This document shows, one piece after another, positions 59,806 through 64,000 of a stretch of DNA of 64,000 nucleotides. The stretch's first letter is position 1. Each line of letters opens with the position of its first letter. Made by a program: the position numbers and the translations under genes. The notes under the pieces are model-generated. The model did not search any database, was not told where the DNA came from, and worked only from the letters and a program-made list of their open reading frames with translations. This DNA comes from Alienimonas californiensis (GTDB lineage Bacteria > Planctomycetota > Planctomycetia > Planctomycetales > Planctomycetaceae): assembly GCF_007743815.1 (NCBI RefSeq), contig NZ_CP036265.1, positions 2,498,823 to 2,562,822 on the forward strand, read 5' to 3'.

Positions 59806-61614
59806 TCAGGCGGCGGTGGCGCTGGGGGCCACTTCGGCCCGGGGGACGCGCGGCCACATCCGCACGGCTTCGATCAGCACCCAGCCTTCCAGCAGCAACA
59901 CGGCCACGCCCATCGCGGTCAGCAGCCAGTTTTCCTGAGCGATCCAGCCGGTCTCCGGGGCGAAGACCTGCACCGCCATCGCCCAGGCCGGCACCGCGAC
60001 CATCAGCAGCGCCGCGGGCACGAGCCACAGCACCGGCTTGCGGCGACGGTGCAGGTAGAAGGCGATCACCAGGAACGCCAGCCCGGCCAGCAGTTGGTTC
60101 GTCGCCCCGAACAGCGGCCACAGGATCAGGCCGCCGGTGCCGTAGCCCAGACCCGGCGCCCGGATCAGGGCGATGGCCCCGCCGGCCAGCACCGCGATCA
60201 GCGTCGCCGGGTGACGGCCGGTGAAGACGCTGAAGATCGGGGCCTTCTCCGCCAGTCCGCCGGCCAGTTCCTGCACGACGTAGCGCTGCAAGCGGGTGGC
60301 GCTGTCCAGCGTGGTGGCCGCGAAGCCGGCGACGGTGGTGGCGATCAGGCCCACCCCGAACCAGGCCGGGATGCCGATCTCCTGTAAAAAGTTCGCCCCG
60401 CCGGCGACGAACGCCCCGATCATCTGGGGCAGCCGGAAGCTCGCCCAGCTCCCGCCGGGCACGTAGGTGGCTTCCCACGCCGCCCGGCCGGAGGCGAACG
60501 CCTCGCCCGTCGGCCCGACCGCGTTCATCCCCAGCCCCGCGGTGCAGGCCAGGATCACCAGCACCGCCAGGAACGCCTCGCACAGCATTGCCCCGTAGCC
60601 GACCGGGCGGGCGTCCAGTTCGCTCTTCACCTGCTTGCTGCTGGTCCCGCTCGCCACGAGGCAGTGGAACCCGCTGCACGCCCCGCAGGCGACGGTGACG
60701 AACAGGAACGGCAGGATTGCGGGGGCGTCGAACGGGCGGGCCTCCGCGGTGACGATCATCGGGGCGCTGTCCAGGCTGGCGTCGCCCGTGACGCCCGCAA
60801 CCCCGGCGCCGACGACCAGCGCCGCCATCGTCAGGAACAGCAGGCCGCTGTTGAGCAGGTCGCGCGGTTGGAGCAGCAGACCCACCGGCATCACGCTCGC
60901 CGCGTAGCAGTACGCCAGCAACAGCACGGTCCAGACGACCACCGGGTTCCAGGAGTCCAGCCCCATCGCCGGCAGGATCTCGGCGAGGTCCACCGGGAGA
61001 TAGGTCGCCCCCAGCCAGACGCAGCCCAGCAGGATCGCCAATCCGCCGACGACCGGCACGGTCAGGCTCCCGCCGCTTTTCAGGGAGCGTCCCAGCAGGA
61101 TCGCCAGCGGCATCGCCGCCCACACCGGCAGCACGCTTTCCGGGTACAGACCGAACACGCTGGCGATCACCAGGCCGAACACGCCCAGCACGACGGTCAG
61201 GGCCAGCCAGAGCACCGACAGGAACAGCCACCGCGCCCGCGGGGAGATCAGCCGACCGGCCGCCTCGCCCACCGTGGCCCCGCCGTTCTTCAAGCTGACC
61301 ACCAGACTGCCGAAGTCGTGCACCGCCCCGACCAGCACGCTGCCCACCAGCACCCAGACCAGCGCCGGCAGCCAGCCCCAGAACACCGCCACCGCCGGCC
61401 CCACGATCGGCCCGGTGCCGGCGATGCTGGTGAAGTGGTGGGCGAACACGACCCAGCGGCGGGTCGGCACGAAGTCCTGCCCGTCCTCCTTGGCGATGCT
61501 GGGCACCACGGCGTTGGCGTCCACGCCGAACACGTGGCTCAGCCAGCGCCCCAGCACGACGTACGCCAGCCCCAAGCCCGCCGCGGACCCCAACAGCACC
61601 ACGAGGACGGACAT
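59806..61614 (-). CDS. cstA: CstA-family peptide/carbon-starvation transporter
   Basis: 602 residues from ATG 61614, about 16 spans. Begins with VLVVLLGSAAGLGLAYVVLG, then VFAHHFTSIAGTGPIVGPAV (the conserved CstA motif), VHDFGSLVVSLKNGGATVGE, and GTSSKQVKSELDARPVGYGA with a cytoplasmic segment. It is in the 600-700 residue range of CstA/BtsT proteins, which import peptides or pyruvate. The divergent csrA start is 323 bases away. Confidence 0.88.
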   Translation of the reverse strand: MSVLVVLLGSAAGLGLAYVVLGRWLSHVFGVDANAVVPSIAKEDGQDFVPTRRWVVFAHHFTSIAGTGPIVGPAVAVFWGWLPALVWVLVGSVLVGAVHDFGSLVVSLKNGGATVGEAAGRLISPRARWLFLSVLWLALTVVLGVFGLVIASVFGLYPESVLPVWAAMPLAILLGRSLKSGGSLTVPVVGGLAILLGCVWLGATYLPVDLAEILPAMGLDSWNPVVVWTVLLLAYCYAASVMPVGLLLQPRDLLNSGLLFLTMAALVVGAGVAGVTGDASLDSAPMIVTAEARPFDAPAILPFLFVTVACGACSGFHCLVASGTSSKQVKSELDARPVGYGAMLCEAFLAVLVILACTAGLGMNAVGPTGEAFASGRAAWEATYVPGGSWASFRLPQMIGAFVAGGANFLQEIGIPAWFGVGLIATTVAGFAATTLDSATRLQRYVVQELAGGLAEKAPIFSVFTGRHPATLIAVLAGGAIALIRAPGLGYGTGGLILWPLFGATNQLLAGLAFLVIAFYLHRRRKPVLWLVPAALLMVAVPAWAMAVQVFAPETGWIAQENWLLTAMGVAVLLLEGWVLIEAVRMWPRVPRAEVAPSATAA

Positions 61615-61839
61615 CGGCGGGGACCTGACTCGGCAAAGAACACGGGGCGAACGCAGGCAGCGTGAACGCCCTCCCCCCCGGACGCAACCGCGGCGGCCCG
61701 CCCCCCGACGGCGCGCCCGCACGCCGGCGCCCGCACGACCGGCCGAGCCGTCGCCGCCGATCGACTCGGCAGGATCGGCGGGTTGGGTTGTTGTGGGAAG
61801 ATATTCCGGCACATGGCATCCCCCCAGGTTGCCCGAACT

Positions 61840-61856
61840 GCCGAAATCATTTCGGC
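61840..61856. promoter_or_regulatory. Dyad GCCGAAAT-C-ATTTCGGC in the cstA/csrA gap
   Basis: Perfect 8-base arms around one base, with a looser outer pair (CGAAC / GTTCG). Lies 82 bases before csrA and 226 bases before cstA. A transcription-factor operator or the base of a hairpin is likely. The rest of 61615-61839 holds no feature I can support. Confidence 0.5.
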
Positions 61857-61880
61857 GGACAGGTTCGCCTGACCGCCCAA

Positions 61881-61903
61881 CTCGCCCGGAGGAGCCGGGC
61901 GAG
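61881..61903 (+). promoter_or_regulatory. Hairpin with AGGAG loop in the csrA leader (candidate CsrA site)
   Basis: CTCGCCCGG (61881-61889) pairs perfectly with CCGGGCGAG (61895-61903) around a five-base loop AGGAG. GGA exposed in a hairpin loop is the hallmark of a CsrA/RsmA binding site. The second GGA is in the csrA ribosome-binding site 38 bases downstream, so dual-site binding is possible. Confidence 0.6.
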
Positions 61904-61925
61904 GTTCATACAGCCCCGCCCACCG

Positions 61926-61932
61926 TAAGGAG
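61926..61932 (+). promoter_or_regulatory. csrA ribosome-binding site
   Basis: TAAGGAG, five bases before the csrA ATG. One of the few strong Shine-Dalgarno sequences in the window. It contains GGA and may itself be bound by CsrA. Confidence 0.85.
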
Positions 61933-61937
61933 ACGCC

Positions 61938-62123
61938 ATGTTGGTTTTAAGCCGTCAGAAGGAACAGACGATCGTCATCGGGGACAACATCCGGATCACG
62001 ATCGTGGAAGTGAAAGGCGACAAAGTTCGCCTGGGCATCGACGCCCCGCGGGACGTGACGGTGCACCGGGAAGAGGTGTTCCTCGCCCTGGCCGCCGGCG
62101 AACCCGCCCGCCGGGCCGCCTGA
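61938..62123 (+). CDS. csrA: Carbon storage regulator CsrA
   Basis: 61 residues. RNA-binding translational regulator; dimer of five-stranded sheets. MLVLSRQKEQTIVIGDNIRI is the family opening, with VRLGIDAPRDVTVHREEVF next. Arg6 and the VHREE RNA-binding segment are conserved. The next gene on the same strand is flagellin, its classical target. FliW, the usual antagonist, is not in the window. Confidence 0.95.
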   Translation: MLVLSRQKEQTIVIGDNIRITIVEVKGDKVRLGIDAPRDVTVHREEVFLALAAGEPARRAA

Positions 62124-62559: not shown

Positions 62560-64000
62560 ATGACCCGTATCAATACCAACGTCGCTTCGCTGCGCGGCCA
62601 ACGCTCGATGGCGAAGAGCGACAAAATGCTGGCGTCCGCGATGACGCGGTTGTCGACCGGCGTCAAAATCAACAACGGCAAGGACGATCCTTCCGGCCTG
62701 ATCGCCGGCGAGACGCTGGGGTCGCAGATTTCGACGATCGAGAAGTCGATCTCGAACTCCAACCGGGCCAACAACGTTCTCACCACCGCCGACGGCGCGC
62801 TGGGCGAGATCGGCGGCCTGCTCAACCAGGTCCGCGGCCTGGTTCAGGAAGGCCTGAACGACGGCGCCCTCTCCCAGGAAGAGCGCGACGCCAACCAGCT
62901 GCAGATCGACAACGCCCTCACGGCGATCAACCGGATCTCGTCCAACACGAGCTTCGCCGGCGACAAACTGCTGGACGGGTCGAAGGCCTTCACGACCACC
63001 ATCAGCTCCGCCGACAACGCGAAGCTCAGCAGCTACTCCATCAACCAGGCGTTGCTGGGCAGCGCCTCCAAGCTCGACCTCGACGCGACCATCGACAGCG
63101 CCGCCGAGCAGGCGTCGCTGGTGTACTCCGGCGGGGACTTCACCTCCGCCGCCACGCTGGAGATCGGCGGCCGCAACGGCACCGAGGTGGTGCAGTTGGG
63201 CGACAGCGCCTCCATGGAGGACGTCACCACCGCCGTCAACGCCCTCACCGACGCCACCGGCGTGTCCGCCCGCGTCCTGGACGGCACGGTCGCGTCCGGC
63301 AACCAGGTCATCGCCGTCAATAGCCAGGACGTCGAGTTCGCGCTGACCGAAGCCGGCCGCAAGCTGGTCGACGGCGGCGGCCTGTCGATCGAGATCGTGG
63401 CCCCCTCCGCGGATACCACGGAGTCCATCGAGCTGATCGACAACGAGGACGGCACCTTCACCGCCAAGATGACGCTGGGCTACGGCTCCGGCGCCATCAC
63501 CTCGGACATCGACGCCATCGTCACCGCCTTCGACGGTCTGACCAACAGCGACGGCGACACCCTGTTCGACGTCGCCGCCGCCGCCGACGCCGTCGGCGCC
63601 ACCCTGGGCACCGCCCTGGCCGAGACCGATCTCGATAAGGGTGCCCTCCGGATCGACGACGTCCGCGGCCCGAACAACCGGGGCGGCGTCTCCCTCGCGT
63701 TCACCGCCACCGGCACCAGCCAGGCGCTGGGGATCTCCGTCAGCGGCGACGACATCACGATCCAGCTCGCCACCGACGCCAACGACGTCGTCACCAGCAC
63801 GCTGGAGGACATCAAGGACCTGCTGGACTCCAGCGGCCTGACCCTCTCCGACGGCACCAGCATCGCCGAAGCCCTCAACATTGAGATCGACGGCGACAAG
63901 GACCTCCTCGCCAACGGGCTGAGCGCCTCCGAGCTGGACACGACGAACGGCACCTCGCTGGTGCTGGAAAGCGAAGCCTACGGCTCCGACGAGTTCGTCT
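62560..64000 (+). CDS. fliC: Flagellin (5' part, runs off the window)
   Basis: At least 480 residues; the frame is still open at the right edge. MTRINTNVASLRGQRSMAKS and RLSTGVKINNGKDDPSGLIA are the flagellin D0/D1 N-terminal helices. ANNVLTTADGALGEIGGLLN, NQVRGLVQEGLNDGALSQEE and NTSFAGDKLLDGS follow. A long, acidic and Thr/Ser-rich D2/D3-like region fills the rest, so the full protein is probably over 600 residues. The C-terminal D0 helix is beyond the window. Extracellular filament subunit. Confidence 0.93.
   Translation, partial: MTRINTNVASLRGQRSMAKSDKMLASAMTRLSTGVKINNGKDDPSGLIAGETLGSQISTIEKSISNSNRANNVLTTADGALGEIGGLLNQVRGLVQEGLNDGALSQEERDANQLQIDNALTAINRISSNTSFAGDKLLDGSKAFTTTISSADNAKLSSYSINQALLGSASKLDLDATIDSAAEQASLVYSGGDFTSAATLEIGGRNGTEVVQLGDSASMEDVTTAVNALTDATGVSARVLDGTVASGNQVIAVNSQDVEFALTEAGRKLVDGGGLSIEIVAPSADTTESIELIDNEDGTFTAKMTLGYGSGAITSDIDAIVTAFDGLTNSDGDTLFDVAAAADAVGATLGTALAETDLDKGALRIDDVRGPNNRGGVSLAFTATGTSQALGISVSGDDITIQLATDANDVVTSTLEDIKDLLDSSGLTLSDGTSIAEALNIEIDGDKDLLANGLSASELDTTNGTSLVLESEAYGSDEFV

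Follow-up and report, generated by a model that had tools for sequence, protein, structure and literature searches.

The csrA locus

The DNA analysed here, referred to as the window, is a stretch of 64,000 nucleotides from the 5.48 Mb genome of Alienimonas californiensis (G000), which carries five csrA genes. The csrA gene in the window is flanked by a divergent cstA-like gene and by a flagellin gene. The sole other genome of the genus available for comparison is termed G001. The genes and leader elements are as follows:

59806-61614, minus strand: cstA-like gene, divergent from csrA (Pfam CstA, 1.6e-113); start probably at 61614, as judged from the translation
61798-61833, plus strand: upstream conserved block containing ATGGCATCCCC (61813-61823), from the two-species alignment with G001 and complementarity to the SD region
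61881-61903, plus strand: upstream hairpin CTCGCCCGG-AGGAG-CCGGGCGAG, possible second (tether) CsrA site, from sequence and fold; 22 of 23 bases kept in G001
61924-61935, plus strand: SD hairpin CGT-AAGGAG-ACG, which covers the ribosome-binding site and is a putative CsrA site, from sequence and a class-wide covarying shape; identical in G001
61938-62123, plus strand: csrA, 61 amino acids (Pfam CsrA, E 2.4e-25)
62560-63999, plus strand: flagellin gene, 3' of csrA (Pfam Flagellin_N, 5.3e-24); continues past the window edge

Residues 1-57 of the window CsrA can be aligned with the solved CsrA and RsmE chains. The VHREE stretch, which we take to hold the RNA-contacting arginine, is retained. Among the matches listed, the best named relatives of the gene come from Fuerstiella and from Planctomycetaceae assemblies. 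A search of the window against Rfam gave no matches above the gathering score. The cstA gene is named as a CsrA target in E. coli in a passage of PMC7652899; reading of the 20 bases ahead of the probable start of the cstA-like gene in the window found no GGA.

A second inverted repeat, GCCGAAA-TCA-TTTCGGC, is located at 61840-61856, between the conserved 5' block and the csrA upstream hairpin. According to the two-species alignment, its outer five pairs are retained in G001, and its inner pairs are altered.

The upstream hairpin

A sequence-only reading that preceded this work had reported a perfect 9-bp stem with an AGGAG loop in the csrA leader, and a second GGA in the csrA SD sequence 38 bases further on. 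Direct reading of the sequence confirms both. The 5' arm CTCGCCCGG occupies 61881-61889, the loop 61890-61894 and the 3' arm CCGGGCGAG 61895-61903, and all nine pairs are perfect. The hairpin lies 47 nt ahead of the csrA start codon. The leader thus contains two GGAs 38 nt apart, one in the upstream loop (61891-61893) and one over the SD sequence (61929-61931), as in the glgC type of target. The minimum free energy (MFE) structure of 61860-61990 predicted by RNAfold contains the upstream stem, and the stability of this 131-nt stretch as a whole does not exceed that of its shuffles (z -0.11).

Perfect stems of at least 9 bp with GGA in a loop of 4-9 nt occur three times in the window, counting both strands and including the upstream hairpin, and a further 80 kb from other parts of the genome contain another three. 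The rate, from 144 kb of genome scanned, is about 0.02 per kb of strand, or about 0.003 per 125-nt leader. A chance origin of the hairpin is therefore unlikely in a leader that was named beforehand, even though such stems are not unique in the window.

The same reading had called the site textbook-shaped, and this description does not hold. The GGA does lie within a hairpin loop, as judged from sequence and fold, but the loop is a pentaloop and not an ANGGAN hexaloop, the base at -2 from the GGA is G and not A, and the stem consists of nine GC-rich pairs. For comparison, a passage of PMC7652899 describes CsrA-selected ligands in which ACA and GGA are invariant, loops have mostly 6 nt and contiguous pairs number mostly four or fewer.

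The G001 leader can be aligned with that of the window. The hairpin is conserved at 22 of 23 bases and its loop at 5 of 5, compared with an identity of 74/100 just upstream of the hairpin and of 9/18 between the hairpin and the ribosome-binding site. The single change places a C opposite a C in the stem without compensation, and the fold is weakened from -18.2 to -11.0 kcal/mol. The alignment of relatives that had been proposed as a check thus finds the loop GGA kept, while a stem pair is broken and covariation is absent. Presence of the hairpin in close relatives, the other point raised, is borne out for G001; a DNA search of 170 family genomes, with both Alienimonas genomes included, found no other alignable leader. 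The next match covered 21 bases (E 0.002), in a search that strongly diverged leaders would escape. In addition to this search, leaders of relatives were read or scanned directly.

Between -120 and -20, csrA leaders show no enrichment of GGA hairpins over control ORFs (20/120 versus 24/186), in a comparison that is weakened by the higher GC content of the control ORFs (0.65 versus 0.57). The hairpins mildly exceed the shuffles of the same 120 leaders (p 0.012 at -5 kcal/mol). Because no alignable leader was found elsewhere in the family, and because there is no enrichment over controls, the upstream site can be regarded as a feature of the genus at most. It appears to be a local extra, and as such a candidate second or tether site for CsrA.

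A covarying hexaloop over the SD sequence

The SD sequence AAGGAG (61927-61932), which holds the second GGA, can itself form the loop of a hairpin with a stem of 3 bp. By sequence, it fits the ANGGAN hexaloop, with six loop nucleotides and an A two bases before the GGA, and we see no difference from the ANGGAN hexaloop RNA of RsmE and CsrA, which the upstream hairpin fails to match in loop size and in the A. Contacts of RsmE with such a hexaloop are mentioned in a passage of PMC7652899 (citing Schubert 2007). Judged by sequence, the SD hairpin is the stronger putative CsrA site of the two.

The leaders used for comparison were collected in stages, and their genomes are grouped by inferred class and family names. 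The first 120 came from CsrA-family and CsrA-protein matches, and AAGGAG was present in 33 of these 120, against 13 of 186 SD-bearing controls. The enlarged collection holds 237 leaders, 147 of them with AAGGAG, a proportion that is not a frequency, because many of the later leaders were gathered by a pattern that requires AAGGAG. Collapsing near-identical sequences reduced the 147 AAGGAG leaders to 139 unique ones, and clustering of the 147 at 60% flank identity gave 112 clusters. The csrA starts were chosen by a hand-set sequence motif; some csrA genes, L090 and the paralogue L005 among them, were absent from the early tests and were included after this motif had been loosened.

In the 112 non-redundant AAGGAG leaders, the observed and expected numbers of Watson-Crick pairs flanking the hexaloop are 64 and 30 for pair 1 (p 2e-11), 58 and 28 for pair 2 (p 6e-10), and 50 and 29 for pair 3 (p 1e-5). 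Beyond the third pair there is no excess (28/27, 23/28 and 26/29), so that exactly three flanking pairs stand out. When G-U pairs are allowed, stems of at least three pairs are formed by 42 of the 139 unique leaders, and the remaining 97 lack three full pairs. Dealing out the 3' flanks at random among the leaders gave a mean of 8.3 and a maximum of 21 in 5000 permutations. The 42 leaders use 20 different three-pair stems. With one random leader per cluster, 37 of 112 have at least three pairs, against 6.7 in permuted sets (maximum 17). The signal is also specific for the register. The next non-nested register accounts for 14 leaders versus 42 in the hexaloop register, and the pairing excess is lost when one side of the loop is extended by one or two bases, a change that leaves the relatedness of the leaders as it was.

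Stems of at least three pairs are found in 25/91, 5/22, 4/9 and 10/25 AAGGAG leaders of the individual family samples, which were not tested one by one and of which the sample labelled f1 also includes some leaders from other families. The 25 non-redundant csrA leaders in which the ANGGAN is not AAGGAG gave no clear signal (only pair 2, p 0.03). In the phylum outside the class, 16 AAGGAG leaders gave 10 observed versus 6.8 expected for pair 1, 11 versus 6.8 for pair 2, and 3 versus 4.1 for pair 3, which is suggestive of two covarying pairs only. The sample from outgroup phyla comprises 22 csrA starts, too few for judgement.

For the class, the three covarying pairs in the 112 leaders point to selection that keeps the short closing stem. 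The copy in the window is invariant with respect to G001. As the two hairpins are identical, they add no covariation, and the assignment of the window hairpin to the ANGGAN hexaloop sites rests on the class-wide evidence. We regard the covariation of the SD hairpin across planctomycete csrA genes as the notable result of this analysis. Within the genome of the window, three of the five csrA genes (that of the window, L004 and L005, not L002 and L003) have the SD hexaloop with at least three pairs.

Comparison with control ORFs

Controls were mechanically called, unannotated ORFs from the window and from 20-kb stretches, 20 at first and 40 later. ORFs could overlap in all control sets except a stricter one. 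In the first test of the precise shape, on 120 leaders, at least three pairs were present in 18 of 62 ANGGAN csrA leaders versus 2 of 35 controls (p 0.005). The difference persisted in the enlarged test (27/89 versus 27/332, p 3e-7) and in the largest one (50/169 unique csrA leaders versus 27/332, p 1e-9). For AAGGAG alone, the numbers are 42 of 139 unique csrA leaders and 2 of 31 controls (p 0.003).

Among the 31 AAGGAG control ORFs, pairs 1-3 do not exceed expectation, with observed and expected numbers of 6/7, 8/8 and 7/8.5. A slight excess is seen at pairs 2 and 3 in 328 control ORFs with any ANGGAN (89/88, 100/84 and 108/88). The stricter, non-overlapping set consists of 561 ORFs, of which 206 have ANGGAN before the start. 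Here the excess is confined to pair 3 (53/53, 54/52 and 65/55), and 13 of the 206 ORFs have at least three pairs. With AAGGAG, none of 18 stricter controls has at least three pairs, compared with 37 of 112 csrA leaders (p 0.0014). It is the precise shape that distinguishes csrA leaders from controls: once any GGA loop of 4-9 nt is admitted at the SD sequence, the hairpins are not enriched, with at least four pairs in 31 of 77 csrA leaders and 61 of 186 controls.

A model for csrA autoregulation

It is likely that CsrA represses the translation of its own mRNA through the SD hexaloop, since the SD stem covaries across csrA genes and no comparable signal is found in control ORFs. Repression of csrA by its own product had already been proposed in the sequence-only reading. 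The proposal stands, with a change of basis: its support comes mainly from the SD hexaloop covariation, rather than from the upstream hairpin on which it had chiefly been built. From the sequence, we infer that CsrA binds the SD hairpin, that binding represses, and that the transcript spans both sites.

In this model, one RNA-binding face of the CsrA dimer would bind the CGT-AAGGAG-ACG hairpin. CsrA on the hexaloop would then exclude the 30S subunit and so block initiation. The 3-bp stem is weak by itself. In Alienimonas, the GGA in the upstream loop could be held by the other face of the dimer, in the manner of E. coli glgC. Whether the upstream hairpin takes part in repression at all is more doubtful than the role of the SD hexaloop; we consider its participation possible, with the balance somewhat against it.

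A base-paired, putative CsrA site over the csrA SD sequence that covaries across several families would be a concrete target of CsrA in bacteria whose genomes each carry many csrA paralogues. The SD hexaloop could also serve as an RNA motif in the search for the rest of the CsrA regulon. Among the open-licence PMC papers listed, judged by titles, the beginnings of abstracts and passages of PMC10729762, PMC4682653 and PMC12316311, none on a CsrA RNA target in planctomycetes was found.

Alternative roles of the leader elements

The upstream inverted repeat may have been kept for reasons other than CsrA, either as a DNA element (an operator or part of a promoter in the divergent cstA-csrA intergenic region) or as an mRNA protector. 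Its location in a divergent intergenic region would suit such a role, and the presence of a second conserved block (61798-61833) in the same region makes its conservation less singular. Against this, scans of the leader region found neither a sigma-70-like promoter nor a terminator-like tail, and the best sigma-54-like site upstream of csrA matches at only 6 of 10 positions, in the window and in G001. On balance, a DNA or mRNA-protecting role appears rather unlikely.

Sigma-54-like sites are found in some other leaders. Matches at 9 or more of 10 positions, located at -66 to -130, are present in 16 of 237 csrA leaders and in 1 of 332 control ORFs, which fits a passage of PMC12316311 reporting that sigma-54 sites are enriched at csrA in Planctomycetia. 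Sites at these distances would give transcripts that begin some 40 to 100 nt ahead of csrA and so include the SD hexaloop in those relatives.

The two putative CsrA sites could also have the opposite ranking, with the upstream hairpin as the principal site and the SD sequence as a weaker partner. This would be in the style of glgC, for which a passage of PMC7652899 describes an SD site preceded by a high-affinity hairpin. The upstream hairpin is indeed strong, presents the GGA in its loop, and has kept this loop in G001. However, the pentaloop, the absence of A at -2 and the 9-bp stem are not what CsrA is expected to prefer, and the broken stem pair in G001, the lack of any other alignable leader in the family and the lack of enrichment over controls also argue against a leading role, which we consider unlikely.

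Another alternative is specific for the genus and involves the conserved 5' block. Its element ATGGCATCCCC can form 9 of 11 Watson-Crick pairs with the SD/start region GGAGACGCCAT, a degree of complementarity that was reached by 64 of 3000 shuffles. The G001 counterpart ATGGCGTCCCC forms 10 of 11 pairs with the SD/start region at the matching place (1 of 3000 shuffles as good). In the MFE folds of both 170-nt leaders, from the window and from G001, the SD sequence is paired with the 5' element and is not presented as a hexaloop. The ability of the 5' element to pair with the SD sequence is a real complication for the SD hexaloop reading in this genus. The 5' element might mask the SD/start region, and CsrA might act by shifting this fold, as passages of PMC7652899 describe for leader refolding in ymdA and psl. 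Yet the sole difference between the two species replaces a mismatch by a pair and is not compensatory, and the two genomes are not independent. Moreover, the transcript would have to start at or before 61813, and the pairing is not seen outside the genus. We judge this alternative to be fairly improbable.

Finally, it is very unlikely that the SD hairpin works independently of CsrA, by simply tuning access to the start site or by acting as a thermometer: SD hairpins are common (61 of 186 control ORFs have at least four pairs around any 4-9-nt loop) and the SD stem has only 3 bp, but the combination of ANGGAN, hexaloop and three pairs sets csrA leaders apart from control ORFs that have the same SD sequence, and it is the CsrA/RsmE shape in the gene for CsrA itself.

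The block at 61798-61833 may be a promoter, an anti-SD element or a short reading frame. A frame of 19 codons, MASPQVARTAEIISADRFA, extends over 61813-61872. It begins with ATG, lacks an SD sequence, and starts 7 bases after GATATT. The counterpart in G001, translated by eye, begins MASPQVAR-AE--SADR and shows several synonymous or conservative changes. The frame may encode a leaderless leader peptide, or it may be a side effect of the block's conservation.

Comparison with known CsrA systems

To our knowledge, most of what is established about csrA autoregulation comes from Gammaproteobacteria. Our proposal that CsrA represses its own translation through the SD hexaloop resembles the E. coli case, in which CsrA acts on its own leader at four sites, one of them over the SD sequence (Yakhnin et al. 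2011, as cited in a passage of PMC7652899), in that a putative site covers the SD sequence of the csrA leader. Unlike E. coli with its four sites, planctomycetes appear to have one class-wide covarying SD hexaloop as a putative site, to which the genus may add the upstream hairpin. The arrangement in Alienimonas is similar to that of E. coli glgC, as outlined in PMC7652899, in combining an upstream hairpin-loop GGA with an SD site that one dimer could bridge. Unlike in glgC, the well-formed hairpin is that of the SD site, the upstream hairpin departs from the usual form, and the GGAs are 38 nt apart.

A further parallel is provided by the flaA leader of Campylobacter jejuni. According to passages of PMC4894983, CsrA represses flaA via two GGA hexaloops, the second of which lies over the ribosome-binding site and is backed by compensatory changes. 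The planctomycete csrA leaders share with it the GGA hexaloop over the ribosome-binding site and the support from compensatory changes. As far as these passages describe it, the C. jejuni system has flagellin as the target, GGAs 21 nt apart and FliW as the antagonist, whereas the target here is csrA, and FliW was not found in 37 genomes of the family.

FliW, flagellin and csrA paralogues

The 37 family genomes without a FliW (PF02623) match include that of the window, whereas 14 of 22 genomes from elsewhere in the class have one. A flagellin match is present in 30 of the 37. For a CsrA-FliW-flagellin switch in the window's genome, the fliW component was thus not found. A passage of a survey (PMC4682653) names Planctomycetes among the groups that may use FliW. 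The link between csrA and flagellin is seen beyond Alienimonas: in at least 16 family genomes, csrA directly precedes a flagellin gene of the same orientation. Five further flagellin regions (L083, L086, L088, L091 and L096) yielded no csrA.

Flagellin leaders were found via a hand-set start motif, which missed others. In 9 of 11 family leaders read, the flagellin SD sequence is GAAAGG, without GGA; in the window and in G001 it is AAGGAA. In other families, L094 and L095 (FliW present) have AGGAGG, L093 (FliW not found) has AAGGAA, and L317 lacks GGA. The window's own flagellin leader yielded no hairpin of at least 5 pairs with GGA in its loop. A flagellin SD sequence without GGA could possibly be an escape from CsrA.

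With the SD hexaloop present in three of the five csrA genes of the genome, mutual regulation among the paralogues is conceivable. In genomes that lack FliW, autoregulation may be of greater importance. A more far-reaching scenario, which we regard as speculative and quite improbable as a whole, is that in planctomycetes without FliW the csrA mRNAs themselves set CsrA homeostasis: the paralogues would repress themselves and one another, their leaders would soak up CsrA, and the flagellin SD sequence would have moved off GGA to escape.

A strong hairpin is also present at about -40 of L031, a flagellin-linked csrA of another genome (G002). It consists of CTGCCGCGG-ACGGAAGC-CTGCGGCGG, has a fold energy of -15.5 kcal/mol and carries ACGGA in its loop. 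It is possibly a second site of independent origin.
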